Of a stretch of DNA of 64,000 nucleotides, positions 49,341-64,000 are shown one piece after another. Both the position numbers and the translations under genes were made by a program. The notes below the pieces were generated by a model. The model searched no databases. It saw only the letters and a program-made list of their open reading frames with translations, and was not told where the DNA came from. Each line of letters starts with the position of its first letter. The first letter of the stretch is position 1. This stretch comes from Melioribacteraceae bacterium (GTDB lineage: Bacteria; Bacteroidota; Ignavibacteria; Ignavibacteriales; Melioribacteraceae): the NCBI GenBank assembly GCA_026417375.1, contig JAOADJ010000036.1, positions 124,001 through 188,000 on the forward strand, in the 5' to 3' direction.

Positions 49341-50169
49341 AATTAAAGCTCCGGCTAAAATTAACATTGGATTAAAAGTTGTTTCAAAACGTGAAGATGG
49401 ATATCATAATTTATCTACTTTGTTCTACCCAATTTATGATTTATATGATATTTTGATTTTTGAAATAGCTGATAATTTTTCTTTTTTGTGTAATGATAAA
49501 AGTATTCCTTCGGATGATAAGAATCTAGTAATAAAAGCAAAAAATATTTTAGAGAAAGAGACAAATAAAAAATTTAATGTTAGAATCGAATTAATTAAAA
49601 ATATTCCATCTGAAGCAGGATTAGGTGGCGGAAGTTCCGATGCTGCCGCAACATTGATTTCTTTATGCGAATTATTTTCCTTGAATATTACTAATGAAAA
49701 ATTAATGTCACTTGCATTAGATTTAGGAAGTGATGTCCCATTTTTTATTAAATCTAAACCTGCTATTGGAAAATCGCGTGGTGAAATATTAGAACATATT
49801 GATTTTGAAATCAACTACCCTATTCTGATTGTTAATCCTAAAATAAAAATTTCTACTAAGGAAGCCTTTGAAAAAATAATTCCTACTAATGAAGAACTTG
49901 AAATAAAAAGCTTTTTAGAAAAACAAAAAAATAATTTATATGATTATAAAAACTTTTTTATTAATGATTTTGAATTTTCAGTTTTTGAAAAATTTCCTGA
50001 AATAAAAAGAATTAAGGAAATTATGTATGAGAATAATGCACTATTTTCATCAATGTCAGGTACTGGCTCTACAGTTTATGGTATTTTTAATAACGAAGAA
50101 GAAATAAAAAATGTTATAAGTAAATTACCTGATAATTACTTTTCTTTTATTTCTAAAAATGATTCTTAA
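49327..50169 (+). CDS. ispE: 4-diphosphocytidyl-2-C-methyl-D-erythritol kinase
   Basis: GHMP kinase of the non-mevalonate isoprenoid pathway. EIKAPAKINIGLKVVSKRED then GYHNLSTLFYPI is the conserved N-terminus. The ATP loop is IPSEAGLGGGSSDAAATLIS and the C-terminal motif is FSSMSGTGSTVYGIF. 280 aa. It overlaps the methyltransferase by 14 bp and converges on the sensor kinase gene, with overlapping stop codons. Isoprenoid precursors fit the phytol/dolichol-kinase-like gene elsewhere in the window. Confidence 0.95.
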   Translation: MLYIEIKAPAKINIGLKVVSKREDGYHNLSTLFYPIYDLYDILIFEIADNFSFLCNDKSIPSDDKNLVIKAKNILEKETNKKFNVRIELIKNIPSEAGLGGGSSDAAATLISLCELFSLNITNEKLMSLALDLGSDVPFFIKSKPAIGKSRGEILEHIDFEINYPILIVNPKIKISTKEAFEKIIPTNEELEIKSFLEKQKNNLYDYKNFFINDFEFSVFEKFPEIKRIKEIMYENNALFSSMSGTGSTVYGIFNNEEEIKNVISKLPDNYFSFISKNDS

Positions 50170-51548
50170 ATGGAATATTTTGGAAGAGTTATTAATACAG
50201 TTGTTCCGGGAGATAAATGATTCCCGATTTTTGATGGACTTAAAATATTAATAGTGCCTGAATGCTTTTCAATAATTTCTTTTACGATTGATAAACCCAT
50301 TCCGCTTCCTTCAATACCAATTTTTTTAGCATTTGAAGCTCGATATAATTGACTAAATATTTTATCAATCTCATTTTGAGGAATACCAATTCCATCATCA
50401 CTTATTTCCAAATCAATAGTTCTTTCATTTTCCTTGATGATTATAAAAATATTACCATTTTCATTTGTAAACTTGACTGAATTTGAAATTAAATTTGATA
50501 AAGCTAATTCAATTAATGTCTTATCCCCTTTAATTAATTTTTCACTGTTATTTATATTTCTTACAATTAGATTAATTTTTTTGTTTTTTAATTCTTCCAA
50601 ATGTTGATCATGAATTTTATTTATTAATTCAATAAGATTAATTTTTTCTGTTAACTGAACTTCAAGAAGTTTTATTTTTGAAAATTTTAACACATCATTA
50701 ATTAAATCAATTGCTTCTTCACTTCTTTCTTTAGCACGAATAATTTTTTCTTCAAGCTGCGGTTCTAATGGTGAAATAAACTTTCCTAATATTAATTCCA
50801 ATATCGATTTTACAGCAACAATTGGAGATTTAATCTCATGTACAATTCCTAAAGTATATTTTTGTTTTGCAATTTCTGCTTCGTTTAATTTATCCAATGA
50901 AACTTTTAATTCCTGTTCTCTTTGATATAATTCCTTTGCAATATTATTTGCTAAATAAACAATTGTAATCAATACAAATGAAAAAACAATCGAAAATAAA
51001 ATTTCAAAACCAATCGTATGATCATGCATATGTTCATATATACCTTTAATATTAAAAATTGGTATAAATGAATAATGACCTAAAAATGATAGAACTGTAT
51101 TAGTTAAAGATAAAATAACTGCATAGACATAAACTAAACTACCAGGAAGAATTAAACTTCCAATAATCATATGAAATACATATAAAAGGAATAAAGGAGA
51201 AAAATAGATTCCGGTTATGTAGACTAAGATCGTAAGGAAAAATAAATCCGAAGTCATCATAATTATTGAAATTTGCATACATCCCAATTTGGTAGAATGG
51301 TAGTCAGTTTTTTTATTTATTACATCAAACACAATATTGAAGGCTAATATGAGAAATGCAATTGCAATGAAAACCTGCATTTGAAAAATTGTTAATTGAA
51401 AATTGAGGAACAATTGACCGAGAATAATAAATAATATTAATAATATAACGGCAAAATATCTAAGTTTAATAAACCATATATTTCTATTTTTAATTGCTTT
51501 CCAAAATTCATCATAATGCTCTGCCCAAGCTGGTATCAAATCAAGCAT
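50166..51548 (-). CDS. membrane histidine kinase downstream of the hydrogenase operon
   Basis: Sensor kinase with about six hydrophobic segments over residues 29-203, no large periplasmic domain and no PAS. The kinase core follows: HisKA with YTLGIVHEIKSPIVAVKSIL (phospho-acceptor His237), and an HATPase domain with NLISNSVKFTNENGN, DDGIGIPQNEIDKIF and GSGMGLSIVKEIIEKHSGT. 460 aa. Membrane-embedded input suggests sensing of redox, quinone or a small molecule, but this is only inference. It has its own sigma70-like promoter right after the hydrogenase-operon hairpin. No response regulator is fused or adjacent other than those inside the hydrogenase operon. Confidence 0.88.
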   Translation of the reverse strand: MLDLIPAWAEHYDEFWKAIKNRNIWFIKLRYFAVILLILFIILGQLFLNFQLTIFQMQVFIAIAFLILAFNIVFDVINKKTDYHSTKLGCMQISIIMMTSDLFFLTILVYITGIYFSPLFLLYVFHMIIGSLILPGSLVYVYAVILSLTNTVLSFLGHYSFIPIFNIKGIYEHMHDHTIGFEILFSIVFSFVLITIVYLANNIAKELYQREQELKVSLDKLNEAEIAKQKYTLGIVHEIKSPIVAVKSILELILGKFISPLEPQLEEKIIRAKERSEEAIDLINDVLKFSKIKLLEVQLTEKINLIELINKIHDQHLEELKNKKINLIVRNINNSEKLIKGDKTLIELALSNLISNSVKFTNENGNIFIIIKENERTIDLEISDDGIGIPQNEIDKIFSQLYRASNAKKIGIEGSGMGLSIVKEIIEKHSGTINILSPSKIGNHLSPGTTVLITLPKYSI

Positions 51549-51643: not shown

Positions 51644-53560
51644 TTACACAATATATCTTCCACGTTTTGTATAATGAGTATGTAATAATTTATGCGATGT
51701 ATGTCCACAAGGTCCATCAGTTAAAAATTCTTCATAAAGACGAATAACATTAGGATTATCATGAGATTTTCTCATTTCAAGGGATTCATCTTCGGCATAA
51801 ATTGCCTGAGCACGTTTTTTTCTTATTTCGGGTGTAGTTGGAATTGGTTGACCACCACCGCCTAAACAACCGCCGGGGCAAGCCATAAACTCTATAAAAT
51901 GACATTCACTAAATTTTCCACCTGCTTTAATATCATCCATAATCTTTTTAGCATTGGCAGTACCGTGTGCAATTGCAACTTTAAGAGTAACACCTTTTAA
52001 CCAATCCCAATTTGGAATTAAATGCTTTAATATATCAGGCACTGGTCCAAATTTATCACCAAGTGGAATTTCAACATATCTGATTCCTTCAAATCCTCTT
52101 ACAGGAGTAACATTTGCATTTTCAAAAGCATCTTCAGTTTTATTACCTGTTATAAACTCATAAACGCTTCTGATAGCAGCTTCCATTACACCACCAGTTG
52201 CACCAAAAATTAATCCTGCACCGGATGCTTCACCAAATGGTGAATCAAAATCACTCTTTGGCATTTCTGGTAAATTAATTCCAGCTTCTTTAATCATTCT
52301 TGCTAATTCTCGTGTTGTCAATCCATAATCAACATCTTTATAACCACTGCTATTCATTTCTGGTCGGTTACATTCATATTTTTTTGCAGAGCAAGGCATA
52401 ACTGCAACCGAAACAATATTAGCAGGATCTATTCCTACTTTTTGTGCATAAAATGTTTTTATCAATGCACCAAACATTTGTTGAGGTGATTTTGCTGATG
52501 ATAAATTATCAATATATTCCGGGTAATAATGTTCTAAAAATTTTACCCATCCTGGTGAACATGAAGTAAATTGTGGTAATGCAACTTCTTCTTTTTTAAC
52601 CAATGCTTTATATAATCTCAATAATAATTCTGTGCCTTCTTCAAATATTGTTAAATCTGCTGTTGTATTTGTATCAAATACTTTATCAAATCCAATTCTT
52701 CTTAAAGCTGTATTTAATTCTTTGGTTAAAGAATGACCAGCTTCCATTCCAAATTCCTCGCAAATTGCTGCTCTTGGAGATGGAGCTGTTTGAATTACAA
52801 CATGTTTATTAGGATCATCAATAGCTGCCCAAATTTCATCTGAAGGATCATTTGCTCGTAATGCTGCTGTTGGACAACGATTAATACATTGACCACAATT
52901 AATACAAATTACATCTAAAAGTGGTTTATCTAAAAATGTACTTATCATTGTTTCATGACCACGATTGACAGCTTCTAAAACACCAACTTCTTGTAAATCA
53001 ATACAAGTTCTTACACAGCGTTTACATAAAACACATTTACTCATATCTCTTATAACTGAATATGAAGAATTATCAACTTCATATCTTGGCTCGGTAACGT
53101 GTCCGAATGTATATGTATCCACACCATATTCTTTTGCAAGATTTTGAAGTTCACATTTTCCATTTCTAAAACATGAATAACATTCTCCGTAATGTTCACT
53201 TAAAAGCAAATCTATAATATGTCTTCTTGCTTTACGAACCATTGGTGATGAAGTTTTAATTTTTATTGGATTTGTAATTGGGAAAGCACAAGAAGCCTGA
53301 AGAGTTCTCATTCCTTCAACTTCTACAACACAAATACGGCAAACACCAGCAACACATAAATCTTCGTGATGACAAAGAGTTGGAACAGAAATACCATTCA
53401 TTTTGCAAGCTTCTAGTATTGTTGTACCAAAAGGAACAGATACTTTCTTTTCATTTATTTCGATTGTAACAGTTCCACCAATTGTTGTTATATCTTTTGG
53501 TTTTTCAATAACGTGAGCTTGTTGACTGACAGGTGACCTTAAATTTGATTTACTTTCCAT
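51644..53560 (-). CDS. hydA: [FeFe]-hydrogenase catalytic subunit, set 1 (HydA, TSCSP variant)
   Basis: NADH/ferredoxin-linked [FeFe]-hydrogenase. Domains in order: [2Fe-2S] (Cys63, 74, 77, 91), His-Cys [4Fe-4S] (HYGECYSCFRNGKC, about 123-136), 2x[4Fe-4S] (CVLCKRCVRTC; CINCGQCINRC), H-cluster domain (motifs at 332-338, 388-395 and 557-565), and small-subunit domain. L1 reads TSCSPGW: the second Cys, a ligand to the [4Fe-4S] of the H-cluster in TSCCP enzymes, is Ser335. L2 is MPCSAKKYE and L3 ACPGGCLGGGGQP. The ATG at 53560 is chosen because GGAGG lies 5 nt upstream; an earlier in-frame start would overlap hydB. It overlaps hydB1 by 11 bp. Confidence 0.92.
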   Translation of the reverse strand: MESKSNLRSPVSQQAHVIEKPKDITTIGGTVTIEINEKKVSVPFGTTILEACKMNGISVPTLCHHEDLCVAGVCRICVVEVEGMRTLQASCAFPITNPIKIKTSSPMVRKARRHIIDLLLSEHYGECYSCFRNGKCELQNLAKEYGVDTYTFGHVTEPRYEVDNSSYSVIRDMSKCVLCKRCVRTCIDLQEVGVLEAVNRGHETMISTFLDKPLLDVICINCGQCINRCPTAALRANDPSDEIWAAIDDPNKHVVIQTAPSPRAAICEEFGMEAGHSLTKELNTALRRIGFDKVFDTNTTADLTIFEEGTELLLRLYKALVKKEEVALPQFTSCSPGWVKFLEHYYPEYIDNLSSAKSPQQMFGALIKTFYAQKVGIDPANIVSVAVMPCSAKKYECNRPEMNSSGYKDVDYGLTTRELARMIKEAGINLPEMPKSDFDSPFGEASGAGLIFGATGGVMEAAIRSVYEFITGNKTEDAFENANVTPVRGFEGIRYVEIPLGDKFGPVPDILKHLIPNWDWLKGVTLKVAIAHGTANAKKIMDDIKAGGKFSECHFIEFMACPGGCLGGGGQPIPTTPEIRKKRAQAIYAEDESLEMRKSHDNPNVIRLYEEFLTDGPCGHTSHKLLHTHYTKRGRYIV

Positions 53561-54746
53561 TTTTACCTCCGTTATTGAAAATTTCATCTTTAAAGTTTTC
53601 TATAATTGAAAGAAATGCATTCGGGCTCGATTGACCTAATCCACATTTAGAAGCAACTTGCATTGTTTTACCTAATTCCTTTAAATGATTTAGGTAATTA
53701 AATGTGAAATTGCTATTTTCAATCATTTCAACACCTTCAAGTAATTTAACATTTCCAATTCTACAGGGAGTGCATTGCCCGCATGATTCTTCAACAAAAA
53801 ATTCCATAAAGTTTTTTAGAACATGCAACATATTTCTTGATTCATTAAAAATTATTATAGAACCACCAGTCGGTGCATCTTCATAACCAAGTTTTCTATC
53901 AAATTGATTTTTAGGAATGCAAATTCCGGAAGCACCACCAACCTGAACTGCTTTTGTATTTTTTGCTCCAACAATCTCAAGTAATTCATTAATAGATGTA
54001 CCCCATGGTAATTCATAAACACCCGGTTTTTCACAATCACCTGAAACAGAAAATAGTTTAGCCCCGGTTGATTTATCAGTTCCGAATTTTGCAAACCAAG
54101 AACCACCTTTTGTAATAATGTGAGAAACAGCTGCAAATGTTTCAACATTATTTACAGTTGTTGGTTTTCCTAAATAACCTGTATTAACCGGATATGGTGG
54201 ACGGTTGCGTGCTTCACCGCGTTGTCCTTCTAATGATTCAATTAATGCAGTTTCTTCACCACATACATATGCACCACTTCCTAATCTTATAGAAATATCA
54301 AAATCAAATCCATCTTTTCCACAAATATTTTTCCCTAACAAATTATCTTTTCTCATTGATTCAAGATAATCTTCTAAAGATTTTAACATATATTCATATT
54401 CACCACGCAGATAAACAATTCCTTTTTTTGCACCAATTGTATATCCAGCTACAACCATTCCATCAAAAATTAATTCAGGATATTCTAAAAGTAACACACG
54501 ATCTTTAAAAGTTCCCGGTTCACCTTCATCTGCATTACAAACAACATATTTTTCATCAGAAATTGCAGCTGAAACTAATGTCCACTTTGTTGCAGTAGGA
54601 AATCCGGCTCCTCCTCTTCCTTTAAGTTTTGATTCACGAATTTCAAACAGAACATCTTCACGAGAAATAGTTACAACTTTTTTAATTGCTTCACCTCTGT
54701 TATATGGTGAAAATATTACACTTCCTTCACGTTTTTTATTTTCCAT
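53550..54746 (-). CDS. hydB: NADH-binding hydrogenase subunit, set 1 (HydB/NuoF-like, short form)
   Basis: Flavin (FMN) and NAD(H)-binding subunit that passes electrons to HydA. FMN/NAD motifs: LKGRGGAGFPTATKW (about 41-55) and CNADEGEPGTFKDR (70-83). The [4Fe-4S] ligands are SCGQCTPCRIG (Cys322, 325, 328) and KCGLGQ (Cys368). The 398-aa length equals complex I NuoF: both the N-terminal thioredoxin-like [2Fe-2S] domain and the C-terminal 2x[4Fe-4S] domain of bifurcating HydB are absent. The start at 54746 has GAGGT overlapping the hydC1 stop. The structure suggests a simpler electron route than set 2. Confidence 0.92.
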   Translation of the reverse strand: MENKKREGSVIFSPYNRGEAIKKVVTISREDVLFEIRESKLKGRGGAGFPTATKWTLVSAAISDEKYVVCNADEGEPGTFKDRVLLLEYPELIFDGMVVAGYTIGAKKGIVYLRGEYEYMLKSLEDYLESMRKDNLLGKNICGKDGFDFDISIRLGSGAYVCGEETALIESLEGQRGEARNRPPYPVNTGYLGKPTTVNNVETFAAVSHIITKGGSWFAKFGTDKSTGAKLFSVSGDCEKPGVYELPWGTSINELLEIVGAKNTKAVQVGGASGICIPKNQFDRKLGYEDAPTGGSIIIFNESRNMLHVLKNFMEFFVEESCGQCTPCRIGNVKLLEGVEMIENSNFTFNYLNHLKELGKTMQVASKCGLGQSSPNAFLSIIENFKDEIFNNGGKNGK

Positions 54747-54753
54747 AATTACC

Positions 54754-55227
54754 TCACTTAATCTCATTCAAAATTTGGATAGCTTTTTCGGGAGTAACTT
54801 TTGAGTAAACTCTTTCATTTACTAAAAGTGCCGGACCTTGGTCACACATTCCTAAACAGTTAACATATTCAAGAGTAATTTTATTGTCTTTTGTAGTTTC
54901 GCCAAATTTAATTCCCAATTCTCTTTCAATTGCTTTTGCAATGTTTTCTTTGCCTGCTAAATCGCAAGTTATTGTTTGACATAAACGAATTATATTTCTT
55001 CCTTTGGGTTTAGTGTTTAGAAATGAATAAAATGTTATTACACTATAAACTTCAACCGGGTGAATGTCTAATAATCTTGCTACTTCCTGTTGAGCAAAAT
55101 CGGGAATGAATTTATGTTTTCTTTGAATATCTTGAAGAATTGGTAAAAGTGAAGATCTTGATTTTCCATATTTGTTTACCAATTGTTCAATTTCGTCTGT
55201 CATATTATTTTTTTCAAATACTAACAT
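54754..55227 (-). CDS. hydC: [2Fe-2S] hydrogenase subunit, set 1 (HydC/NuoE-like)
   Basis: Thioredoxin-like [2Fe-2S] protein of the NuoE family, partner of HydB. A helical N-terminus (SLLPILQDIQRKHKFIPDFA) leads to the cluster ligands: LCQTITCDLA (two Cys) and NCLGMCDQGP (two Cys). 157 aa. The ATG at 55227 is preferred because AGGAG lies 8 nt upstream and TAATG overlaps the preceding REC gene, although an ATG at 55203 also fits. It is followed by hydB1 after 7 bp. The order hydC-hydB-hydA is the same as in set 2. Confidence 0.92.
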   Translation of the reverse strand: MLVFEKNNMTDEIEQLVNKYGKSRSSLLPILQDIQRKHKFIPDFAQQEVARLLDIHPVEVYSVITFYSFLNTKPKGRNIIRLCQTITCDLAGKENIAKAIERELGIKFGETTKDNKITLEYVNCLGMCDQGPALLVNERVYSKVTPEKAIQILNEIK

Positions 55228-55610
55228 TAGATACTCTCCTTCACTTTGTTAAGTAAAGCATCAACTTTATTAATTAATTGTTCGGGAGAAATTGGTTTTT
55301 CGACAAAATCATCAACCGGAACCATTTCGCTTTTGTTAAAATCCATTCCAACAGCTTTAGAAATTGAAGTGTACATTAGTATCGGGGTTGTAATTTTTTC
55401 TCTTCTAAATTTTTGAGCAAGGTAAAAACCATCGTCCGGTTCATCCATCATTACATCAAGAATAATTAAATCAGGATTATTTTCTGTAACTATTTTGTAA
55501 CCATCATTTGGATTTGATGCGGTGATAATACTATGTCCTTTAGACTTGAGAACAATTGAACTTGCATCAATAATATCTGGATCATCATCGATAATAGCAA
55601 TTAGTGCCAT
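55227..55610 (-). CDS. REC-only response regulator between the hydrogenase sets (second)
   Basis: A single receiver domain of 127 aa, with no output domain. Acidic pocket IIDDDPDIID (residues 7-13), phospho-acceptor Asp52 in LIILDVMMDEPD, and a conserved Lys in DFVEKPISPEQL. Between them lies a stretch typical of stand-alone CheY-like proteins. The start has GGAGAA 4 nt upstream. It shares the TAATG overlap with hydC1, so its level is tied to the set 1 hydrogenase. It could act as a phosphorelay shuttle or control hydrogenase or another protein by binding; no DNA-binding domain is present. Confidence 0.88.
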   Translation of the reverse strand: MALIAIIDDDPDIIDASSIVLKSKGHSIITASNPNDGYKIVTENNPDLIILDVMMDEPDDGFYLAQKFRREKITTPILMYTSISKAVGMDFNKSEMVPVDDFVEKPISPEQLINKVDALLNKVKESI

Positions 55611-55625
55611 ATCTTTCTCCTTTAT

Positions 55626-57113
55626 TTAGTTTTGATTTATTGGTAAGTGAATTGTAAAAGTTGTTCCATATCCAAAAACTGAATCAACTTCAATTTTTCC
55701 ATAATATGATTCAACAATTTTTTTCACTATTGATAATCCTAATCCAGTTCCGCTTATGTTTCTTGTTTTTTCATTTTTAGCACGGTAAAATTCATTAAAT
55801 AATTTTTCTTTTTCTTCTGGTTTCATACCGATGCCTGTATCGCGAACTTTTATTATTAAAAAATTATTTTCCTGATGCGAAGTAATGTAAATTGAACCAT
55901 CATCTTTGTTATATTTTATTGCGTTGCTTAGAAGATTTGTAAAAACTCTTGTTATTTCATTTATGTCAGCTTTTATTGATGGTAAATTTTCTTGAATATT
56001 TTTATCAATTGTAATATTCTTTTTCTTTATCTCTAATTCTAAAAATTGAATTGTTGAGTTAATTACATCTGAAATGTTAACATTTTCAATTTCTCTTTGT
56101 TTGGTTTTTAATTCCATTCGTGAAATATCTAAAAGGTCATTCACTAAATCTGTTAAGCTTTTTAATCTTACACTTGATCTTTGAAGATATTCTTTCTTTT
56201 GTTCATCAGAAATATTTAGAGATTCATCCAGAATAATATTAATAAAACCCTGAACTGCTGCAATTGGGGTTTTTAATTCGTGAGCTACCATTGAAACAAA
56301 TTGAGATTTAATTAGCTCAATCTTTTTAAATTGTGTAATGTTACTAAGAATAATAACAATTCCTGCAAGACTACCATCAGGATTTGCAATTGGTGTAACT
56401 GCTGCTTCAATTACTAATTCGTTATTTGGTAGGATTTCAATTTGCTTAGTATATGTTTTGATAAGAAATTTTTCAGAAGAAATTATTTTATCATAGAGTT
56501 CAATTATTTCATTTGGAAGTTTTTGAATTACTTTATCACCAATTTTAAAATCTAAAATATTTAAATAACGTAATGCTGCATAGTTAAAATAGGTAAGTTG
56601 TCCGTCAAGATTTATTACAAGAACACCATCATTAATTGTTTTAAGAATGGTATTTAATCTTGATTTTTCATTTGCTATTTCTAAGAGTCTTTCTTCCCGT
56701 TCTTTTTTAAGACGTTCTGCTTCGAGAACTAGATTTCTTTGTTTAATTCCTTGTTCAATGTTATAGATTAATTCTTCAGGAGAGAATGGTTTTGGAATAT
56801 AACCAAAAGCACCTTTACGTGTTGCTTCAATTGCAGTTTCATAACTTGCATAAGCAGTTGCAATAAAACAGATTGTATTTGGAAACTTTGATTTGATATT
56901 GGATAAAACTTCTATTCCATCAACATCTGGCATTTTTAAATCAATGACAGCAATATCAAATTCATTTGATGTTCCAATTTCAATTCCAGTTGTACCACAA
57001 TCTGCAGAAACAACAGAGTAACCTTCTTCTTCTAAAAGAAGTTGGGTTGCTGCTCTTAGACTTTTTTCATCATCTACAATTAAAATATTTTTTTTCTGTA
57101 AATCTACAGACAT
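55626..57113 (-). CDS. REC-PAS-histidine kinase
   Basis: Hybrid signalling protein with the receiver first: REC (about residues 8-120; Asp58, Lys108 of GYIPKPFSPEEL), a short coiled linker (127-150), PAS (about 150-262; ILKTINDGVLVINLDGQLTY), HisKA with SQFVSMVAHELKTPIAAVQG (His278), and HATPase (LSNAIKYNKDDG, DTGIGMKPEEKEKLF, GTGLGLSIVKKIVESYYGK). It is cytoplasmic, with no membrane helix. The N-terminal REC probably receives phosphate from another kinase and controls this one; the PAS domain might bind a small ligand. Its place directly upstream of REC and hydC1 suggests one phosphorelay. 495 aa. Confidence 0.9.
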   Translation of the reverse strand: MSVDLQKKNILIVDDEKSLRAATQLLLEEEGYSVVSADCGTTGIEIGTSNEFDIAVIDLKMPDVDGIEVLSNIKSKFPNTICFIATAYASYETAIEATRKGAFGYIPKPFSPEELIYNIEQGIKQRNLVLEAERLKKEREERLLEIANEKSRLNTILKTINDGVLVINLDGQLTYFNYAALRYLNILDFKIGDKVIQKLPNEIIELYDKIISSEKFLIKTYTKQIEILPNNELVIEAAVTPIANPDGSLAGIVIILSNITQFKKIELIKSQFVSMVAHELKTPIAAVQGFINIILDESLNISDEQKKEYLQRSSVRLKSLTDLVNDLLDISRMELKTKQREIENVNISDVINSTIQFLELEIKKKNITIDKNIQENLPSIKADINEITRVFTNLLSNAIKYNKDDGSIYITSHQENNFLIIKVRDTGIGMKPEEKEKLFNEFYRAKNEKTRNISGTGLGLSIVKKIVESYYGKIEVDSVFGYGTTFTIHLPINQN

Positions 57114-57140
57114 TTATATAATTAACACTTAGTGTCAATC

Positions 57141-57542
57141 TTATGAATTAAAGCTTTCTATTTTAGCAATTAATTCATCAACAACAACGGGTTTGTTCAA
57201 TACTCCATCACATTTAAGCCATTCTTTTTCTTCATCTGTTGCTGCACTAAATTTGTATCCGGTTTCATAAGTAGCAGATGTTAAAATAAATACTGGAATT
57301 TTTTTTCCATGTTCAGTTTTTTTAATCTTATATGAAAGAATAAAACCAGCATCCATTTGCTCCATAATCAAATCGAGAATAGCAGCATCTGGTAATTCTT
57401 TTTGAAACAGTTTAAATCCATCTTCAGAATTTTCTGCTGTAATTACCTGAAATCCTTTTGATTCTAATAAAAGTTTGTTTTGTTCAAGTAGATCAATATC
57501 GTCATCAACTAATAATATTTTTTTAATTTCTTTTGGATCCAT
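57141..57542 (-). CDS. REC-only response regulator downstream of the hydrogenase-like sensor kinase
   Basis: A single receiver domain, 133 aa. Acidic pocket LLVDDDIDLLE (residues 10-20), Asp57 phospho-acceptor (AAILDLIMEQMDAG), Lys in DGVLNKPVVVDEL. The insert YETGYKFSAATDEEKEWLKC between beta-4 and beta-5 is longer than in CheY. It starts 10 bp after the stop of the sensor kinase gene, so it is the best candidate for that kinase's direct partner. A Cys in the insert region is notable but may be chance. No output domain. Confidence 0.87.
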   Translation of the reverse strand: MDPKEIKKILLVDDDIDLLEQNKLLLESKGFQVITAENSEDGFKLFQKELPDAAILDLIMEQMDAGFILSYKIKKTEHGKKIPVFILTSATYETGYKFSAATDEEKEWLKCDGVLNKPVVVDELIAKIESFNS

Positions 57543-57552
57543 TTTTATGTCC

Positions 57553-59544
57553 TTAATTCATTATTACATTTTTATTTTGATTAATTGGTAATTTAATTGT
57601 AAATGTTGTACCTAAATTTAAAGTACTTTTAACTTTAATATCACCTTTATGCATTTTAATAATTCCATAAGATATTGCTAATCCAAGTCCAGTTCCTTTT
57701 CCGATTTTTTTAGTTGTAAAAAAAGGTGTGAATATTTTTGAAATATTCTCATTGGAAATTCCACACCCTGTATCAGAAATTTCAATAATGAATTCGTTCG
57801 AGTTATTTTTAATTGTAATAGACACTTCTTTCTTGTTTGAATTTTCTAATGATTCAACAGCATTATTAATCACATTAATAAACACTTGTTTTATCTGATC
57901 TTCATCTCCTTCAATTATTGTATTTTCAATTTCATTTTTAATAATTAGTTCAACATCATAATAATCTGGATTTATTTTAATCGTATCGGCAACGCTTTTA
58001 ATTGTTTCATACAAATTAAATTTTGATAACCTTAATTTATTTTGACGAGCAAAATTTAATAAGTTTGAAACAATAGATTTACATCTATTTGCTTCATCAA
58101 CAATTGTTTGAATTTCTAAATTTTGTTCAGCACTACAATTTGCTTTTTCAAGTTTTCTTTTCAATAAAGAAGCATAAAGTATAATTGAACCAAGTGGATT
58201 GTTAATTTCGTGAGCAACTCCGGCGGCTAATTGACCAATTGAAGCAAGTTTTTCTGCACTATGAAGTTGTTCATGTGCATCTTGTATTTCTTGATTTGCT
58301 TTTTCAAGTTTATCAATTAAATATGGTAAACACATGTCATCTTCAGCTAAACCTTTAGCAATTGCAATCGCATAATCCCGGCAAGTATTGTAACCACATG
58401 AACCACAATTTAATTCATCACTTTTAGAATATTTATTTGTTCTTGCTAAAATTGTTTTAATCTCATCTTCGGTTGGAGTTGGTTTTCTTTGTGGTTTATA
58501 AGTGAATTTTCTATTCAGGTCTAAAAAACGAGAATTAAAAATATTACTTTGCCATTCTCTTTTATCAAATGAATTTATGTTTTCATTGATAAATGTAATC
58601 ACTTTTTCTCTTTTGGAATAATAATTCAAATCGGAATCAATTGCTGGTCCATTGATACAACCTTCGCAGAATAAAATATCAACAAATTTTGATTTAATAT
58701 TGCCTGCATAAATTTCTTCAAGAATTTCTTTTACTTTGTTTTTACCCTCTACAACAATTATATCTTTTTCAAGAACATCTTCTGAAATATTTGCAGTTTT
58801 TAATAACCCTCCAACTAATGGAAAAGATTTACCTATAAATGCATGTGGCGGATCAAAGTTTGAATCATCTAAATTTTCAAGGTTAATATTTTTTGCTTCA
58901 AATAATTCTTTTATTTCATTGAAAGTTAAAACTGCATCAACAGCATCATTTACTTCTTCGTCAACATATTCACTCTTTTTTGCAACACATGGTCCAATAA
59001 AAACAACCTTTGAATCATTTCCATAATTACTTTTAAGATATCTTCCCATTGCAATCATAGGAGAAACTATAGTTGCAAGTTGATTAACAAGTGGTTCATA
59101 ATACTTTTCAATTAAATTATAAATTGCGGGACATGGAGAACTTATAATAGTTTGTTTATCAGAATTTTGATATAAATCTTTGTAATAATTACTTATCAAA
59201 TCTGCACCAAAAGCAGCTTCTGTTACTAATTTGAATCCTAACAATTTTAGTCCAGAAACAACTTTTGAGTAGTTGTTTGGGAAAGAAGCTGGAAATGATG
59301 GAGCTATCATTGCAATTGCTTTATTAGAATTTAATATTTCATTCAAAACAATTGAAACATCACTTTTAACAGATTTTGCATTTTGTGAACATACTTTTAC
59401 ACAATGACCACAATTTATACATCTTTCATTTATTACAACTGCTTGCCCTTCAACAACTTTAATTGCAATAGCAGGACATTCTCTTACACAAGAGTAACAT
59501 CTTTTACATTTTTGTCCTATCGTTGTAACTATTGCAAGTGACAT
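57553..59544 (-). CDS. hydrogenase-like iron-sulfur sensor fused to histidine kinase (HydS-like)
   Basis: 663 aa. Order: 2x[4Fe-4S] ferredoxin (Cys13-16-19-23 and 42-45-48-52); a [FeFe]-hydrogenase-like large-subunit domain (about 70-320); a [4Fe-4S] ARF-type motif (Cys380, 383, 388, 405: CGSCGYNTC); a coiled linker; HisKA with SIGQLAAGVAHEINNPLGSI (His445); HATPase (GTGLGLAISYGIIKMH). The H-domain motifs deviate: SSPCPA (135-140, Cys138 kept, proton-relay Cys replaced by Pro137), GPCVAKKSE (Cys186), and CEGCINGP (Cys293, 296, spacing one shorter than in catalytic enzymes). I infer a redox or H2 sensor rather than an enzyme. It lies between the two hydrogenase sets, with a REC partner downstream. 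Confidence 0.9.
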   Translation of the reverse strand: MSLAIVTTIGQKCKRCYSCVRECPAIAIKVVEGQAVVINERCINCGHCVKVCSQNAKSVKSDVSIVLNEILNSNKAIAMIAPSFPASFPNNYSKVVSGLKLLGFKLVTEAAFGADLISNYYKDLYQNSDKQTIISSPCPAIYNLIEKYYEPLVNQLATIVSPMIAMGRYLKSNYGNDSKVVFIGPCVAKKSEYVDEEVNDAVDAVLTFNEIKELFEAKNINLENLDDSNFDPPHAFIGKSFPLVGGLLKTANISEDVLEKDIIVVEGKNKVKEILEEIYAGNIKSKFVDILFCEGCINGPAIDSDLNYYSKREKVITFINENINSFDKREWQSNIFNSRFLDLNRKFTYKPQRKPTPTEDEIKTILARTNKYSKSDELNCGSCGYNTCRDYAIAIAKGLAEDDMCLPYLIDKLEKANQEIQDAHEQLHSAEKLASIGQLAAGVAHEINNPLGSIILYASLLKRKLEKANCSAEQNLEIQTIVDEANRCKSIVSNLLNFARQNKLRLSKFNLYETIKSVADTIKINPDYYDVELIIKNEIENTIIEGDEDQIKQVFINVINNAVESLENSNKKEVSITIKNNSNEFIIEISDTGCGISNENISKIFTPFFTTKKIGKGTGLGLAISYGIIKMHKGDIKVKSTLNLGTTFTIKLPINQNKNVIMN

Positions 59545-59552
59545 AATTTTAA

Positions 59553-61283
59553 TTAGTTATTATTTAATAATTTTTTTCTATCAACATAATGAGTATGAAG
59601 AATTTCATGTGCAGTATTTCCGTTCGGTTCGCCTAAAAATTCTTTATATAATTTTTTTACAGACTCATTTTCATGAGATTTACGATTTTTCATTTTAGAA
59701 TCTATATCATATAATGTTTGAACACGTTTTTTAACTTTTTCCGGTTTTTGATGAATTGGTTGACCACCTCCATTAATACAACCACCGGGACAAGCCATAA
59801 CTTCAATGAAATGATATTTAGATTCCCCTTTTTCAATTTCATCAAGAATTTTTGAAACGTTTCCAATTCCATTTACAACAGCAACATTTACATTCAACCC
59901 ATTAATAGGAATTGATGCAGATTTAATTCCTTCCAAACCACGAACTTGTTGAAAATCAAGAGTATCTAATTCCTTTCCAGATAATTTTTCATAAGCAGTT
60001 CTTAACGCTGCTTCCATAACTCCGCCGCTGGTTCCAAAGATTGCTGCAGCACCAGTTGATTCACCAAGTGGATTATCAAAATTATCTTCCGGTAAATCGT
60101 TAAAATCAATTCCAAACATTTTAAACATTCTTACTAATTCTCTTGTTGTTAAAACAGCATCAACATCTTGCAAATGATTTTCTGATAATTCTGGTCTATC
60201 AGATTCAAATTTTTTAACTGTACATGGCATTATTGAAACAACAAAAATATTTTTAGGATCAATTCCCATTTTCTTTGCATAATATGTTTTGAGAATTGCT
60301 CCTTCCATTTCATGAGGAGATTTACAAGTTGAAACATGTTTTAATAAGTGAGGTCTGTTTTGTTCAATATATTTTACCCAACCCGGACAACAACTTGTAA
60401 ACATTGGTAAATCACCATTTTCTTTTACTCTGTTTATCAATTCAGTTGCTTCTTCAATTATTGTTAGGTCTGCTGCAAAATTTGTATCAAATACTTTTTT
60501 GAATCCTAATCTTCTTAATCCTGTAACTAACTGACCAGTTGCGTTTGTGCCTAAAGGTAAATTGTATTCTTCACCAATACTTGCTCTTACAGCAGGAGCA
60601 ACCTGAGCAATTACAAATTTGGATTTATCTTTAATTGCATTTATAACTTCTTTCGAATGACTTTTTTCGCGTAATGCAGCAGTAGGGCAAACCAAAATAC
60701 ATTGACCACAAAGAATACAATCGCTTACATTTAATCCTTTGTTAAAAGGAGTTGTAACAGTGCTTTGAAATCCTCTGTAAGTAAAATCAATAGCACCAAC
60801 TTTTTGAATTTCATTACAAGTTCTAACACATCTGCCACATAAAATACATTTAGCAGGGTCTCTTTCCATTGAAGCACTGGAAATATCAATTGCATGTTCT
60901 TTCTTTTCACCTAAATAACGATGTTCGCGAATATTATATCTTTCTGAAAGATCTTGTAATTCACAATTTTTATTTCTAACACAAATCAAACAATCTTGTG
61001 GATGATTTTCTATTAATAATTCAACAATTGTTTTTCTAGCTGTTCTTACTCTTTGAGAATTTGTTTCTACTTTCATACCGTTTGCAACCGGATAAGCACA
61101 AGATGGTGTAAGTCCTCTCATACCATCAACTTCTACAACACAAATTCTACAAGCACCAGTTGGGAACATATCTTTCATATGACATAAAGTTGGAATATGA
61201 ATTCCAACAGATTTTGCAGCATCAAGGATTGTCATTCCTTCTTCTGCTTTAACTTTTATATTATTTATTGTCAATTCAACCAT
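59553..61283 (-). CDS. hydA: [FeFe]-hydrogenase catalytic subunit, set 2 (HydA, canonical)
   Basis: 576 aa. Domains: [2Fe-2S] (Cys34, 45, 48, 62), His-Cys [4Fe-4S] (His94, Cys98, 101, 107), 2x[4Fe-4S] (Cys146-149-152-156; 189-192-195-199), H-cluster domain, small-subunit domain ending AHEILHTHYVDRKK. The H-cluster motifs are all canonical: TSCCPGW (296-302), MPCTVKKFE (Cys354), ACPGGCINGGGQP (Cys498, 502). This is the M3-type subunit of trimeric HydABC, which oxidises or evolves H2 with NAD and, if bifurcating, ferredoxin. SD AAGGAG precedes the ATG. It is followed after 8 bp by the sensor kinase. Confidence 0.94.
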   Translation of the reverse strand: MVELTINNIKVKAEEGMTILDAAKSVGIHIPTLCHMKDMFPTGACRICVVEVDGMRGLTPSCAYPVANGMKVETNSQRVRTARKTIVELLIENHPQDCLICVRNKNCELQDLSERYNIREHRYLGEKKEHAIDISSASMERDPAKCILCGRCVRTCNEIQKVGAIDFTYRGFQSTVTTPFNKGLNVSDCILCGQCILVCPTAALREKSHSKEVINAIKDKSKFVIAQVAPAVRASIGEEYNLPLGTNATGQLVTGLRRLGFKKVFDTNFAADLTIIEEATELINRVKENGDLPMFTSCCPGWVKYIEQNRPHLLKHVSTCKSPHEMEGAILKTYYAKKMGIDPKNIFVVSIMPCTVKKFESDRPELSENHLQDVDAVLTTRELVRMFKMFGIDFNDLPEDNFDNPLGESTGAAAIFGTSGGVMEAALRTAYEKLSGKELDTLDFQQVRGLEGIKSASIPINGLNVNVAVVNGIGNVSKILDEIEKGESKYHFIEVMACPGGCINGGGQPIHQKPEKVKKRVQTLYDIDSKMKNRKSHENESVKKLYKEFLGEPNGNTAHEILHTHYVDRKKLLNNN

Positions 61284-61294
61284 TTTTAAACTCC

Positions 61295-63280
61295 TTAATT
61301 AACTTGAACTGCATCTAAACGACATGTTTCAAAACACATTCCACATTTAGAGCATTTAATTTCAATAATTTGATGTGGTTGTTTTTTATCACCAATAATT
61401 GCTTCAGTTGGACATTTTTTAGCACACAAACCACAACCTGTACAAGCTTCGGGATCGATAGTAAATGTTAAAATATCTTTACAAACTTTTGCTTCACATT
61501 TTCTTTCAAATAAATGTTCTTCATATTCTTCCCTGAAATATTTTAAACCAGATAAAACAGGATTTGGGGCGCTTTGTCCTAATCCGCAAAGTGATGTATC
61601 CTTTATAACTTCAGCTAATCTTTGTAAATGAATAATTCCTTTAAACCTTTGCAAAGGTTCATATTGAATTTTATGATGATTATAACTAACAGGAATTCGT
61701 TCAATAATTTCAAGCATTCTTTTTGTACCTTCACGACATGGAACACATTTTCCACAAGATTCATTTTGAATGAAAGTGAGAAAATATTTTGCAACGTCAA
61801 CCATACAAGTATCTTCATCCATTACAACAAATCCACCAGAACCCATCATTGCACCGATACTTTTTAATGAATCATAATCAACCTCAGTATCCATTACCTC
61901 CATTGGTAAACAACCGCCTGAAGGACCGCCTATTTGTACAGCTTTAAATTTTTTATCATTTGGAATTCCGCCACCAATATCAAAAACAACATCTTTTAAT
62001 TTTATACCCATCGGAACTTCAACCAACCCACTATTTTTAATTTTACCAGAAAGTGCAAAAACTTTTGTTCCCTTACTATTTTTTGTACCTATTGATGAAA
62101 ACCATTGTGAACCTTTATTTATAATAGAAGGAACGTTCGCAAAAGTTTCAACGTTATTAATTACAGATGGTTTTCCCCATAATCCAGAATCGCTTGGATA
62201 AGGTGGACGAGGTCTTGGCATTCCACGTTTTCCTTCAATAGATGCTATCAATGCAGTTTCTTCTCCACAAACAAAAGCACCTGCACCTTTTTTAATTCTA
62301 ATATCAAAATCAAAATCACTGTTTAATATATTTTTACCAAGTAAGCCATAATCACGGCATTTATTAATTGCATTTGTTAATCTTTCAATTGCTAATGGAT
62401 ATTCAGCCCGGCAATAAATAAATCCCATTGAAGCACCAATAGCATAAGCACCAATTAACATTCCTTCAATTACACGGAAAGGATCACTTTCAAGAACGGA
62501 GCGATCCATAAATGCACCCGGGTCACCTTCATCTGCGTTACAAATAATATATTTTTGATCAGCAACTTTCTTTTGAGCTATTTCCCATTTTAGTCCTGTA
62601 AGAAATCCTCCACCACCTCTTCCCTTTAATCCACTTTCTTTGACTTCTTTTACTACATCTTCCGGACTCATTAATCTAATTGCTTTATCTAATCCTTTGA
62701 ATCCTCCTGCAGCAATATATTCATCAATTGATGTTGGATTTATTATACCGCTATTTTCAAGAACTATTTTAAGTTGTCTTTTAAAGAATGGGGTTTCATT
62801 TATGTTAGGAATTTTATCTGTTGATTTGCCAAAAGAGCCAAGCAACTTTTTATCATAAATATTGTTTTTGATAATATGAGTTTCAATTAAAGAAGGAACA
62901 TCTTTAGGAGTAATTTCGCAATAAGAAATTCTATCTTTACCAGGAAGTTTTATATCAACTATTGGTTCTTTTGCACAAAATCCAATACAACCAGTTGGGA
63001 CAATTTCTGCTATAATGTTTTTTTGTTTTAACTCATTTTCAATTGCCTGCTTAACTTTATCAGCGCCAGATGCTAAACCACAAGTTCCCATTCCAATAAA
63101 AATAATCGGAACCTGGCTATTAACATATTTCAACTCATTATAAAGATTTAAATATTTTTCTTTACAATTTTCATTTTGGTGACAAAGTGGCCCTTCAAGT
63201 GAACAAGTTACAAATAAATCACAAGGGTTATCTTTTGAATGCCAACATTGGTCACAACATTTATCAATGTAAGTTTTCAT
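61295..63280 (-). CDS. hydB: NADH-binding hydrogenase subunit, set 2 (HydB, full-length bifurcating type)
   Basis: 661 aa. N-terminal Cys-rich patch (Cys8, 9, 12, 20, 26, 33, 39), then a thioredoxin-like [2Fe-2S] domain (Cys67, 98, 102; a fourth ligand is not evident). Next is the NuoF core with the FMN loop KGRGGGGFLTGLKWE (about 219-233), CNADEGDPGAFMDRS and SCGKCVPCREGTKR. A C-terminal 2x[4Fe-4S] domain ends the protein (Cys613-616-619-623; 643-646-649-653). This is the architecture of electron-bifurcating HydB/HndC. Start ATG with AGGTG upstream; it overlaps the hydC2 stop by 4 bp. FMN and NAD(H) binding are family knowledge. Confidence 0.94.
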   Translation of the reverse strand: MKTYIDKCCDQCWHSKDNPCDLFVTCSLEGPLCHQNENCKEKYLNLYNELKYVNSQVPIIFIGMGTCGLASGADKVKQAIENELKQKNIIAEIVPTGCIGFCAKEPIVDIKLPGKDRISYCEITPKDVPSLIETHIIKNNIYDKKLLGSFGKSTDKIPNINETPFFKRQLKIVLENSGIINPTSIDEYIAAGGFKGLDKAIRLMSPEDVVKEVKESGLKGRGGGGFLTGLKWEIAQKKVADQKYIICNADEGDPGAFMDRSVLESDPFRVIEGMLIGAYAIGASMGFIYCRAEYPLAIERLTNAINKCRDYGLLGKNILNSDFDFDIRIKKGAGAFVCGEETALIASIEGKRGMPRPRPPYPSDSGLWGKPSVINNVETFANVPSIINKGSQWFSSIGTKNSKGTKVFALSGKIKNSGLVEVPMGIKLKDVVFDIGGGIPNDKKFKAVQIGGPSGGCLPMEVMDTEVDYDSLKSIGAMMGSGGFVVMDEDTCMVDVAKYFLTFIQNESCGKCVPCREGTKRMLEIIERIPVSYNHHKIQYEPLQRFKGIIHLQRLAEVIKDTSLCGLGQSAPNPVLSGLKYFREEYEEHLFERKCEAKVCKDILTFTIDPEACTGCGLCAKKCPTEAIIGDKKQPHQIIEIKCSKCGMCFETCRLDAVQVN

Positions 63281-63762
63281 TCAACACCTACAGTTTGTTC
63301 AATTTTTGATTTTTCTTCTTTTTTATACTTACTTAAAATTTTTGGAATTTCTTTTACAGTAATTCTTCCATAATATTCTTCGTTAATATTAATAACAGGT
63401 GCAATGCTACAAGCACCAATACAAGCAACAGTTTCGAGTGTAAATAATTTATCTCGTGTCGTTTGACCAGCTTTTATACCTAATTCAGTTTCAAGTGCTG
63501 TTAAAATATTTGCAGAATTTTTAACGTGACAAGCTGTGCCACGACAAACACGAATAACATTTTTACCGAGTGGTGTTAATCTAAATTGATTATAAAATGT
63601 AGCAACTCCGTAAACAGTAACAAATGGAATTCCAACATATTCAGCAATTTGTTTTAATTGATCTTCTGGTAGATATCCAAATTCATCTTGAACATCCTGA
63701 AGTAAAGGTATTAAATAACTTCTGTCTCTTTCTGGGTACTTTGTCAAAATATGATTTTCCAT
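63277..63762 (-). CDS. hydC: [2Fe-2S] hydrogenase subunit, set 2 (HydC/NuoE-like)
   Basis: 161-aa NuoE-type thioredoxin-fold [2Fe-2S] protein, first gene of the operon. Helical N-terminus SYLIPLLQDVQDEFGYLPED, then IPFVTVYGVATFYNQFRLTP; cluster ligands RVCRGTACHVKN (two Cys) and ACIGACSIAPV (two Cys). ATGA overlap with hydB2. No strong ribosome-binding site precedes the ATG (only AGAG). It partners HydB2 and HydA2; the set 1 copy is a paralogue of similar length. Confidence 0.94.
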   Translation of the reverse strand: MENHILTKYPERDRSYLIPLLQDVQDEFGYLPEDQLKQIAEYVGIPFVTVYGVATFYNQFRLTPLGKNVIRVCRGTACHVKNSANILTALETELGIKAGQTTRDKLFTLETVACIGACSIAPVININEEYYGRITVKEIPKILSKYKKEEKSKIEQTVGVE

Positions 63763-64000
63763 CTTTTTCTCTTATTTGTTTCAAATGCTTATCTATAAAT
63801 TCATTTTTAATGCCAATAAAATCTCGATTTTTAGGTCTTTTTTAAGGGTTTTATTTTATACTTTTCTTATTGAATAGAAATTTTTTATTAATGATTATTA
63901 AAGTTAAGAGTGAAATTTATTGTGATTATATCAAAATAACCTATTTTTACTTATAAAATTTTCGGGTTTTTAATGGAATTTGAAAACAACTTTTTGATAA
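63763..64000. other. AT-rich leader region upstream of the hydrogenase operon
   Basis: 238 bp without a convincing gene up to the window end. It must hold the operon's promoter (reading leftwards). TATAAT occurs on the minus strand at 63931-63926, but no good -35 pairs with it, so I do not assign a promoter. A near-palindrome at 63921-63937 is listed separately. The gene further upstream is outside the window. Confidence 0.6.
63921..63937. promoter_or_regulatory. candidate operator (Rex/FNR/CRP-like imperfect palindrome)
   Basis: TTGTGATTATATCAAAA is an odd-spaced imperfect palindrome (6 of 8 symmetric pairs), built from GTGAT / ATCA half-sites about 160 bp before hydC2. Half-sites resemble Rex (TTGTGA) or FNR/CRP motifs, but the spacing is one base short of each. 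It overlaps the candidate TATAAT. Weak evidence. Confidence 0.25.

Follow-up and report, generated by a model that had tools for sequence, protein, structure and literature searches.

We analysed a 64,000-nucleotide (nt) stretch of DNA (hereafter the window; positions 124,001 to 188,000 of contig JAOADJ010000036.1, assembly GCA_026417375.1) from a Melioribacteraceae bacterium, in which a sensory [FeFe]-hydrogenase fused to a histidine kinase (HydS-HK) and three receiver (REC) proteins are encoded between two sets of hydrogenase genes. Several described systems come close to this locus. The RH-HoxJ-HoxA system of Cupriavidus necator combines a hydrogenase of low activity that senses H2, a histidine kinase (HK) and sigma-54 hydrogenase promoters (PMC10073562). 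Among [FeFe] enzymes, BfuT, the group C3 HydS of the ‘sub-type V’ BfuTABC clusters (Hydrogenedentota, Caldithrix), is reported to carry a kinase domain, and the sub-type V clusters agree with the cluster of Caldithrix abyssi (PMC11406978). The C. abyssi Rex-HydCBA operon (Cabys_3675-3679) encodes a HydABC of bifurcating type and is said to be controlled by Rex at a predicted operator (PMC5317091). In the available text of the literature on [FeFe] HydS proteins the signalling role is called putative or presumed, and no downstream pathway is named.

The window operon resembles RH-HoxJ-HoxA in having a hydrogenase-like sensor, a histidine kinase and, as judged from sequence, a sigma-54 promoter ahead of hydrogenase genes. 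However, its sensor is of the [FeFe] type and fused to the kinase instead of being a [NiFe] regulatory hydrogenase, REC-only proteins and a second kinase intervene, and the operon encodes no HoxA-like activator. By analogy, the relay probably feeds an activator as RH-HoxJ feeds HoxA in [NiFe] systems, a likeness in working and not in membership. With BfuT the window protein shares a Fe_hyd_lg_C domain with its cysteines, loop replacements and a fused kinase encoded beside bifurcating HydABC, the two being likened by domains and neighbourhood; REC-only or REC-HK partners and a sigma-54 promoter go unmentioned in the main text on sub-type V, where ‘response regulator’ occurs 0 times (PMC11406978). 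The HydABC of C. abyssi is of bifurcating type as in the window, but the window genome has no match to the Rex DNA-binding domain. The open-licence PMC literature, in the text available, includes the kinase-linked HydS (PMC11406978) and the Rex-controlled Caldithrix operon (PMC5317091); it yielded no account of REC/REC-HK partners and none in which an [FeFe]-hydrogenase operon has a sigma-54 promoter. We apparently deal with a known kind of sensor placed in a new, widely conserved relay, in a class for which sigma-54 control appears to be unreported.

The genes form a run of 11 on the minus strand, from 63762 to 50166 by open reading frame (ORF) coordinates, in the order HydC1-HydB1-HydA1-HydS-HK-RECa-REC-PAS-HK-RECb-HydC2-HydB2-HydA2-memHK. 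Neighbours overlap or lie at most 27 bp apart, except for 95 bp ahead of the final gene, memHK, and by Pfam the run holds three kinases and three receivers. Its features, in the direction of transcription, are as follows.

63864-63879, minus strand: enhancer-like 16-bp dyad (position weight matrix score 11.5); the window copy TTCTATTCAATAAGAA differs at two positions from the family consensus TTCYTA-N4-TARGAA
63802-63815, minus strand: candidate sigma-54 type -24/-12 promoter TGGCATTAAAAATG, 53 nt ahead of the HydC1 start
63277-63762, minus strand: HydC1 (NuoE-like) of hydrogenase set 1 (ORF; conserved gene order)
61295-63280, minus strand: HydB1, 661 amino acids (aa), with a C-terminal 2x[4Fe-4S] domain (bifurcating type)
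59553-61283, minus strand: HydA1, [FeFe]-hydrogenase of group A6 with TSCCPGW (897.8 bits, cut-off 765)
57553-59544, minus strand: HydS-HK, with a sensory [FeFe]-hydrogenase domain, a C-terminal 4Fe-4S domain and a histidine kinase, phospho-His at residue 445
57141-57542, minus strand: RECa, 133 aa, the REC-only member of the HydS-HK trio (Pfam, residue conservation)
55626-57113, minus strand: REC-PAS-HK, 495 aa, the other kinase of the trio, a REC-HK in further lineages (Pfam)
55227-55610, minus strand: RECb, 127 aa, REC-only, head of the set-2 module (Pfam)
54754-55227, minus strand: HydC2 of hydrogenase set 2 (ORF, conserved order)
53550-54767, minus strand: HydB2, 405 aa, lacking the C-terminal 2x[4Fe-4S] domain
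51644-53587, minus strand: HydA2, [FeFe]-hydrogenase of group A6, with TSCSPGW replacing TSCCPGW
50166-51548, minus strand: memHK, membrane histidine kinase closing the set-2 module (Pfam)

We read this run as a single, probably sigma-54-dependent operon of two modules, in which the relay together with memHK/RECb would set an NtrC-type AAA+ activator encoded elsewhere; we hold this reading as a whole at about even confidence. A first-pass annotation of the window had noted the block of two REC-only proteins and one REC-PAS-HK between the hydrogenase sets, and the ORFs lie exactly as it placed them, with Pfam domains REC, REC-PAS-HisKA-HATPase and REC. It was also right that the block carries no DNA-binding or other output domain (helix-turn-helix, AAA+ and GGDEF all went unmatched in the Pfam scan) and that a membrane histidine kinase is encoded nearby, which both the ORF list and Pfam confirm. 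It overlooked the adjoining upstream gene for HydS-HK, which begins 8 bp past HydA1 and ends 10 bp ahead of RECa.

The two modules can be seen among relatives, a sample of 58 genomes with the window genome included. HydS-HK is present in 38 of them at 54 to 100% identity (two copies are cut by contig ends), and in G002 a further 70-residue HydS-HK start lies at a contig end. HydS-HK, RECa and REC-PAS-HK are contiguous in all 36 readable loci; L061 is cut off, and both it and L069, which also meet contig ends, were excluded from some counts. RECb is found in 32 of these 36 trio loci, there directly ahead of set 2 (in L040 HydC2 is fused to HydB2); tblastn recovered it in L057, L064, L067 and L068, as well as REC-PAS-HK in L065, where antisense ORFs overlap these genes. 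The four trio loci without RECb (L054, L058, L059 and L063) are also without set 2, and in the same four genomes RECb heads a set 2 elsewhere (L085 to L088). In genomes that have no trio RECb still heads HydC2-HydB2-HydA2, with memHK behind (L070 and L072 to L078; L084 is cut off). Counted over separate or trio-less units, RECb precedes 14 of 14 close set-2 units whose start is covered, and RECb and memHK bracket set 2 in 13 of 13. In G016 RECb adjoins memHK directly, set 2 being absent there, and a more distant set in G049 (L082, 46–57% identity) is without RECb.

Since the trio is contiguous wherever it can be read and RECb heads set 2 with or without it, the three-protein block is, as far as gene order tells, a junction at which module 1 ends with RECa and REC-PAS-HK and module 2 begins with RECb. 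The earlier treatment of the three receivers as one relay is not supported by this comparison, because RECa and REC-PAS-HK travel with HydS-HK and set 1, while RECb travels with set 2 or memHK. The tie of the trio to set 1 is seen in the distribution of genes of HydA1 type, typed within this analysis: none of the 16 genomes without such a gene has HydS-HK, and 37 of the 38 HydS-HK genomes have one, the 38th (G027) having only an untyped partial. Three genomes, G016, G023 and G049, have HydA1 without HydS-HK, and in G049 none of the trio stands beside HydA1.

RECa and RECb are single-domain response regulators, each a REC domain alone with Asp, Thr/Ser and Lys intact. All aligned relatives have the phospho-acceptor Asp, the Lys and a Thr or Ser, in RECa (73/73; Asp57 and Lys117), in the receiver of REC-PAS-HK (74/74; Asp58, Thr86 and Lys108) and in RECb (33/33), with up to three rows of the RECa and REC-PAS-HK sets duplicating others. 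The phospho-His278 of REC-PAS-HK is likewise found in 74/74 sequences and its ATP-site Asn in 73/74.

The case for sigma-54 control is made by conservation upstream of HydC1. The pattern TGGCAY-N6-TG occurs 40 to 66 nt ahead of the HydC1 start in 36 of 38 loci (mean 0.065 and maximum 1 in shuffles), a count that is not independent for the seven regions after whose alignment the pattern was chosen. Of 347 further ORFs in these loci only 4 have it upstream, and of the 32 in-operon RECb genes none does; the tests on the 347 ORFs and on separate trio and RECb units are independent of the choice. In the 64-kb window it occurs once, at the HydC1 site, with 2 occurrences expected by chance; thus the window alone proves nothing and conservation carries the promoter claim. 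A strict sigma-54 scan demanding GC at -12 scored at least 9 in only 9 of 38 loci and left the window's own site unmatched. The dyad, located mostly at -116 to -160 of HydC1, reached a leave-one-out score of at least 9 in 35 of 38 loci versus 3.2% of shuffled regions; with the full matrix, built from HydC1 regions only, the same score was reached ahead of 15 of the 347 other ORFs.

Both elements recur where the modules stand apart, in a test that allowed C as the first base of the promoter pattern. All six readable trio units that do not follow HydA1 (L054, L062, L064, L066, L067 and L068) have a sigma-54 site, with best dyad scores of 9.2 to 18.3; L065 holds only 66 bp there. Separate RECb units have the site in 8 of 13 cases (one at -260) and a dyad of score at least 9 in 10 of 13, and in L075 a dyad-promoter pair lies ∼430 nt ahead of RECb, beyond the tested 300. 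Twelve in-operon HydS-HK genes used as controls gave no sigma-54 site (0/12) and no dyad above 5.6. A joint search for the dyad and TGGCA across the genomes returned 24 sites in 23 of the 58, versus 9 for a backwards control; 17 of the 24 precede HydC1, RECb or HydS-HK by position (one, in G016, was confirmed) and 7 lie elsewhere. One of these 7, away from hydrogenase loci, is a dyad of score 18.9 with TGGCA at the joint spacing but lacking a full -24/-12, ahead of a MerR-like gene (L244:1794-1809, G006:C159). Palindromes GAGAA-N-TTCTC in L034, L046 and L048 gave a less strong lead than the dyad did.

An AAA+ activator is required at sigma-54 promoters, and the window genome encodes RpoN and 14 strong AAA+ activators. 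Given a conserved sigma-54 promoter and dyad and no activator in the operon, an AAA+ activator encoded elsewhere should control it. The first-pass annotation had left open whether the receivers act by direct protein binding or through a distant regulator, and the promoter and dyad speak, indirectly, for the second possibility.

HydS-HK adjoins RECa and joins a hydrogenase-like sensor to a full kinase, and is therefore likely to be the input sensor of the relay. Pfam finds in it 4Fe-4S sites, Fe_hyd_lg_C (E-value 8.9e-55), the Fe-S domain PF04060, HisKA and HATPase. Sixteen Fe-S cysteines, the phospho-His445 and the ATP-site Asn557 are invariant in 78 aligned sequences, three of them duplicates; the cluster-ligating Cys138, 186, 293 and 296 are found in 78/78. 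Residue 137, at the position of Cys299, is P, S, A, T, D or F in at least 77/78, and residue 184, at the position of Met353, is Gly in 75/78 and Thr in 3/78. By sequence, the H-cluster loops depart from those of HydA1 as in known sensory enzymes: TmHydS too keeps the H-cluster cysteines with the Cys299 and Met353 positions replaced (PMC10055695). The third loop reads C-x2-C in 36 of 37 HydS-HK proteins (the 37th, L069, ends before it) and C-x3-C in 40/40 HydA1 proteins, as also in five HydS-like proteins of a third hydrogenase set, so that a full H-cluster in HydS-HK is only putative. That third HydCBA set occurs in five relatives (L098 to L102) together with a Rex gene and its own HydS-like gene, which matches only the front of the window HydS-HK.

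A C-terminal 4Fe-4S domain is shared with TmHydS (group C) and TamHydS (group D) (PMC13104023). TmHydS has a PAS domain and TamHydS has none, and a kinase domain is mentioned for neither in the available text of the two reports (PMC10055695, PMC13104023), whereas HydS-HK has a full kinase. In an AlphaFold2 model, for which the input was the window protein and proteins of related loci only (mean predicted local distance difference test score, pLDDT, 86; predicted template modelling score 0.66), a single helix of residues 406-467 begins beside Cys405, at which the cysteines of the C-terminal Fe-S domain end, and bears His445; pLDDT is 59-75 in blocks 421-500. Foldseek matched the front of the model to [FeFe]-hydrogenases and listed ZraS among the kinases. 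The kinase domain of HydS-HK is ZraS/AtoS-like, of a class that normally drives NtrC-type regulators. A redox signal passing through the C-terminal cluster is one possibility among others; in TamHydS this cluster is not reduced by H2 (PMC13104023).

On the reading we favour, module 1 would pair the bifurcating-type HydC1B1A1 with a sensor relay dedicated to it (HydS-HK, RECa and REC-PAS-HK), and module 2 would consist of RECb, a second, non-bifurcating HydCBA set and the membrane kinase. The sequences show which genes are present and in what order, their co-inheritance, the conserved residues, the promoter and the dyad; we infer the stimulus, the direction of phosphotransfer, and the activator and its link to the relay as follows. 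The H-cluster domain of HydS-HK would read H2 or the redox state of ferredoxin/NADH, and the long helix that joins the C-terminal 4Fe-4S domain to the phospho-His would alter the kinase. RECa and the receiver of REC-PAS-HK would then accept phosphoryl groups and integrate a second (PAS) input. The net signal, with that of memHK/RECb, would determine how active an NtrC-type AAA+ activator from elsewhere in the genome is, and this protein would bind the upstream dyad and open the sigma-54 promoter.

Several observations weigh against this reading. The activator was not pinned down among the three orphan NtrC-type regulators whose distribution was compared across relatives (orphan meaning that a local profile found no kinase in the neighbouring ORFs covered). 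C19:50561 is an unlikely candidate, missing from 12 of the 38 trio genomes; C17:66623, at a contig end and thus of uncertain orphan state, is also unlikely, missing from 7 of 38; and C10:70131, present in 58/58 relatives with or without hydrogenase, is compatible but unspecific. Two genomes, G016 and G023, lack HydS-HK but have RECa and REC-PAS-HK, and G049 has a sigma-54 site ahead of set 1 without any trio. In L059, where a small ORF separates HydA1 from the trio, neither a sigma-54 site nor a dyad was found there. The exact dyad alone is not enriched genome-wide, its backwards control being commoner in most genomes, and it has no copy in the window's own genome. The covariation test, which the first-pass annotation had proposed, was run on nine kinase-receiver pairs, with specificity positions after HK853/RR468, shared ancestry among rows and the duplicate loci L103, L104 and L108 taken out (they remain in the residue alignments). 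For HydS-HK/RECa it gave z 0.16 and for memHK/RECb z -0.13, two of the seven pairs that fell between -0.67 and 0.79, so that neither pairing gains support. The other two pairs reached z 3.49 for HydS-HK/RECb (n=32, with RECb columns nearly invariant) and z 2.17 for REC-PAS-HK/RECa (n=67); with nine tests on kin sequences we draw no pairing from these values.

As for other regulators, Rex was rejected in this genome: there is no PF06971 match, and no Rex-type site with at most three mismatches lies upstream of the window HydC1. A few relatives have Rex-type sites with 2 or 3 mismatches upstream of HydC1. L242 (G000:C6:69000-75000) holds a further gene for an AAA+ activator, close to a sigma-54-like site and beside apparent nitrogen genes of glnB/amtB type (named by eye from the sequence).

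The alternative that survives best, possible though in our view less probable than not, is that two independent systems happen to be neighbours, memHK/RECb serving set 2 and the HydS-HK trio serving set 1, each with its own output. The modules do separate cleanly in evolution, and every set-2 unit that is separate or trio-less (13 of 13) has memHK. However, separate units often share the promoter and dyad, and so look co-regulated. In addition, 12 of 31 in-operon loci have no memHK beside set 2, which would suit a trio able to replace it, although it may sit elsewhere in those genomes. The difference between 13/13 and 19/31 has a Fisher p of 0.009 (uncorrected for kinship), and fits a memHK that acts as the RECb kinase and whose part the trio could take over to some extent. 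The suggestion made earlier, that memHK might serve the receivers of the block, thus fits RECb, with which it brackets set 2, but the near-zero covariation given above lends the pair no support.

An unlikely but still substantial alternative is direct action: phosphorylated RECa and RECb would bind hydrogenase complexes or kinases and tune H2 turnover, transcription being a separate matter (sigma-54 here, Rex elsewhere). RECb stands directly before HydC2 in the 32 loci with set 2 after the trio and in the 14 separate units, an order that may equally reflect co-transcription; the RECb kept beside memHK without set 2 in G016 and the distant L082 set without RECb speak against this alternative, and a sigma-54 promoter with a conserved dyad on the same operon needs an input. 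Outside the Ignavibacteria the relay recurs, which supports the reading we favour, and does so under differing transcription control, which supports direct action. The HydS-HK alignment was scanned against genome contigs, the best 80 loci were kept and 44 annotated, 32 of them titled as non-Ignavibacteria; L104 is titled Bacteroidetes but belongs to relative G025, so it was placed among the Ignavibacteria, L103, L104 and L108 duplicate loci of the other search, and L131 and L132 belong to one metagenome-assembled genome (MAG). With REC, HK and Rex recognised by profiles built here, HydS-HK has both a REC-only and a REC-HK gene as neighbours in 23 of the 32 other-lineage loci (in L119, L125 and L130 the REC-only gene sits ahead of HydS-HK). 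The remaining nine comprise three with REC-HK only, three with REC only (one cut off) and three with neither (two cut off). Titles among the 23 loci include Hydrogenedentota, Calditrichota, Holophagaceae, Deltaproteobacteria, Bacteroidales, Elusimicrobium, Thermoleophilia, Neomarinimicrobiota and Planctomycetes (Kuenenia, Phycisphaerae), names that are those of MAG contig titles, unchecked for misbinning.

Local transcription control differs among these lineages, a further point against the reading we favour. Rex lies near the relay in 14 of the 32 loci (two confirmed by Pfam), not one of 19 testable HydC starts has the sigma-54 pattern, and it precedes none of the 8 Rex genes with sufficient upstream sequence; the relay is therefore not tied to sigma-54 in general. 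Among the HydS-HK loci, Pfam scans of chosen neighbours showed one GerE-type response regulator, preceding the cassette in L129, and the local AAA+ profile found one regulator, in L128, where a REC-AAA+-FIS gene lies two genes ahead of HydC. A relay that is kept while the local transcription factor changes may have its own output, which is why direct action retains the weight we give it. The more general form of this idea, that in the HydS-HK/REC-only/REC-HK relay of many phyla the RECs directly gate bifurcating hydrogenases and the neighbouring transcription factor is interchangeable (Rex, or sigma-54 with AAA+ in Ignavibacteria), we regard as rather doubtful. Support for the logic of a sigma-54 activator comes from the L128 gene and from L146:9941-12268, on a contig titled Deltaproteobacteria, where a HydS domain is fused directly to a sigma-54 AAA+ domain and a FIS helix-turn-helix.

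REC-only proteins with intact sites beside kinases can act as phosphate sinks or timers, and the intact RECa and RECb do adjoin kinases, but such a role without any output of their own is improbable, as it leaves unexplained a full second kinase with the conserved His and ATP-site Asn of REC-PAS-HK.

The two-module operon is very probably also present in cultured Melioribacter roseus, for which Mros2480-2482 and Mros2487 (fused)-2488 are listed as hydrogenase genes (PMC3534657). The numbering fits the gene order of L040, and on this mapping the four genes between the sets would be HydS-HK, RECa, REC-PAS-HK and RECb. The proteins detected solely under fermentative conditions include hydrogenase proteins of the mapped region (PMC5492636). 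The gene order of L118 similarly suggests that the gene after HydA in C. abyssi encodes HydS-HK. In the cassette HydS comes with an explicit kinase, with two partners that are conserved and with a candidate promoter and enhancer, which makes H2 sensing by the [FeFe] domain directly testable in vitro.

The second hydrogenase set has peculiarities of its own. In 48 of 49 HydA2 sequences the motif is TSCSPGW, where Ser replaces the Cys299 of proton transfer; the sole exception is a fragment in L084. Exchanges at this position other than to Asp abolish or severely impair characterised enzymes (PMC10055695); the HydA2 set is conserved despite the Ser. The C-terminal 2x[4Fe-4S] motifs were found in 0/48 HydB2 versus 39/39 HydB1 proteins, and HydB2 without them resembles the non-bifurcating ‘sub-type II’ BfuB (PMC11406978). 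In two of the other-lineage loci (L119:4511-7762 and L130:3021-6071) HydB is extended by Fer4_20 and a pyridine nucleotide-disulphide oxidoreductase domain.

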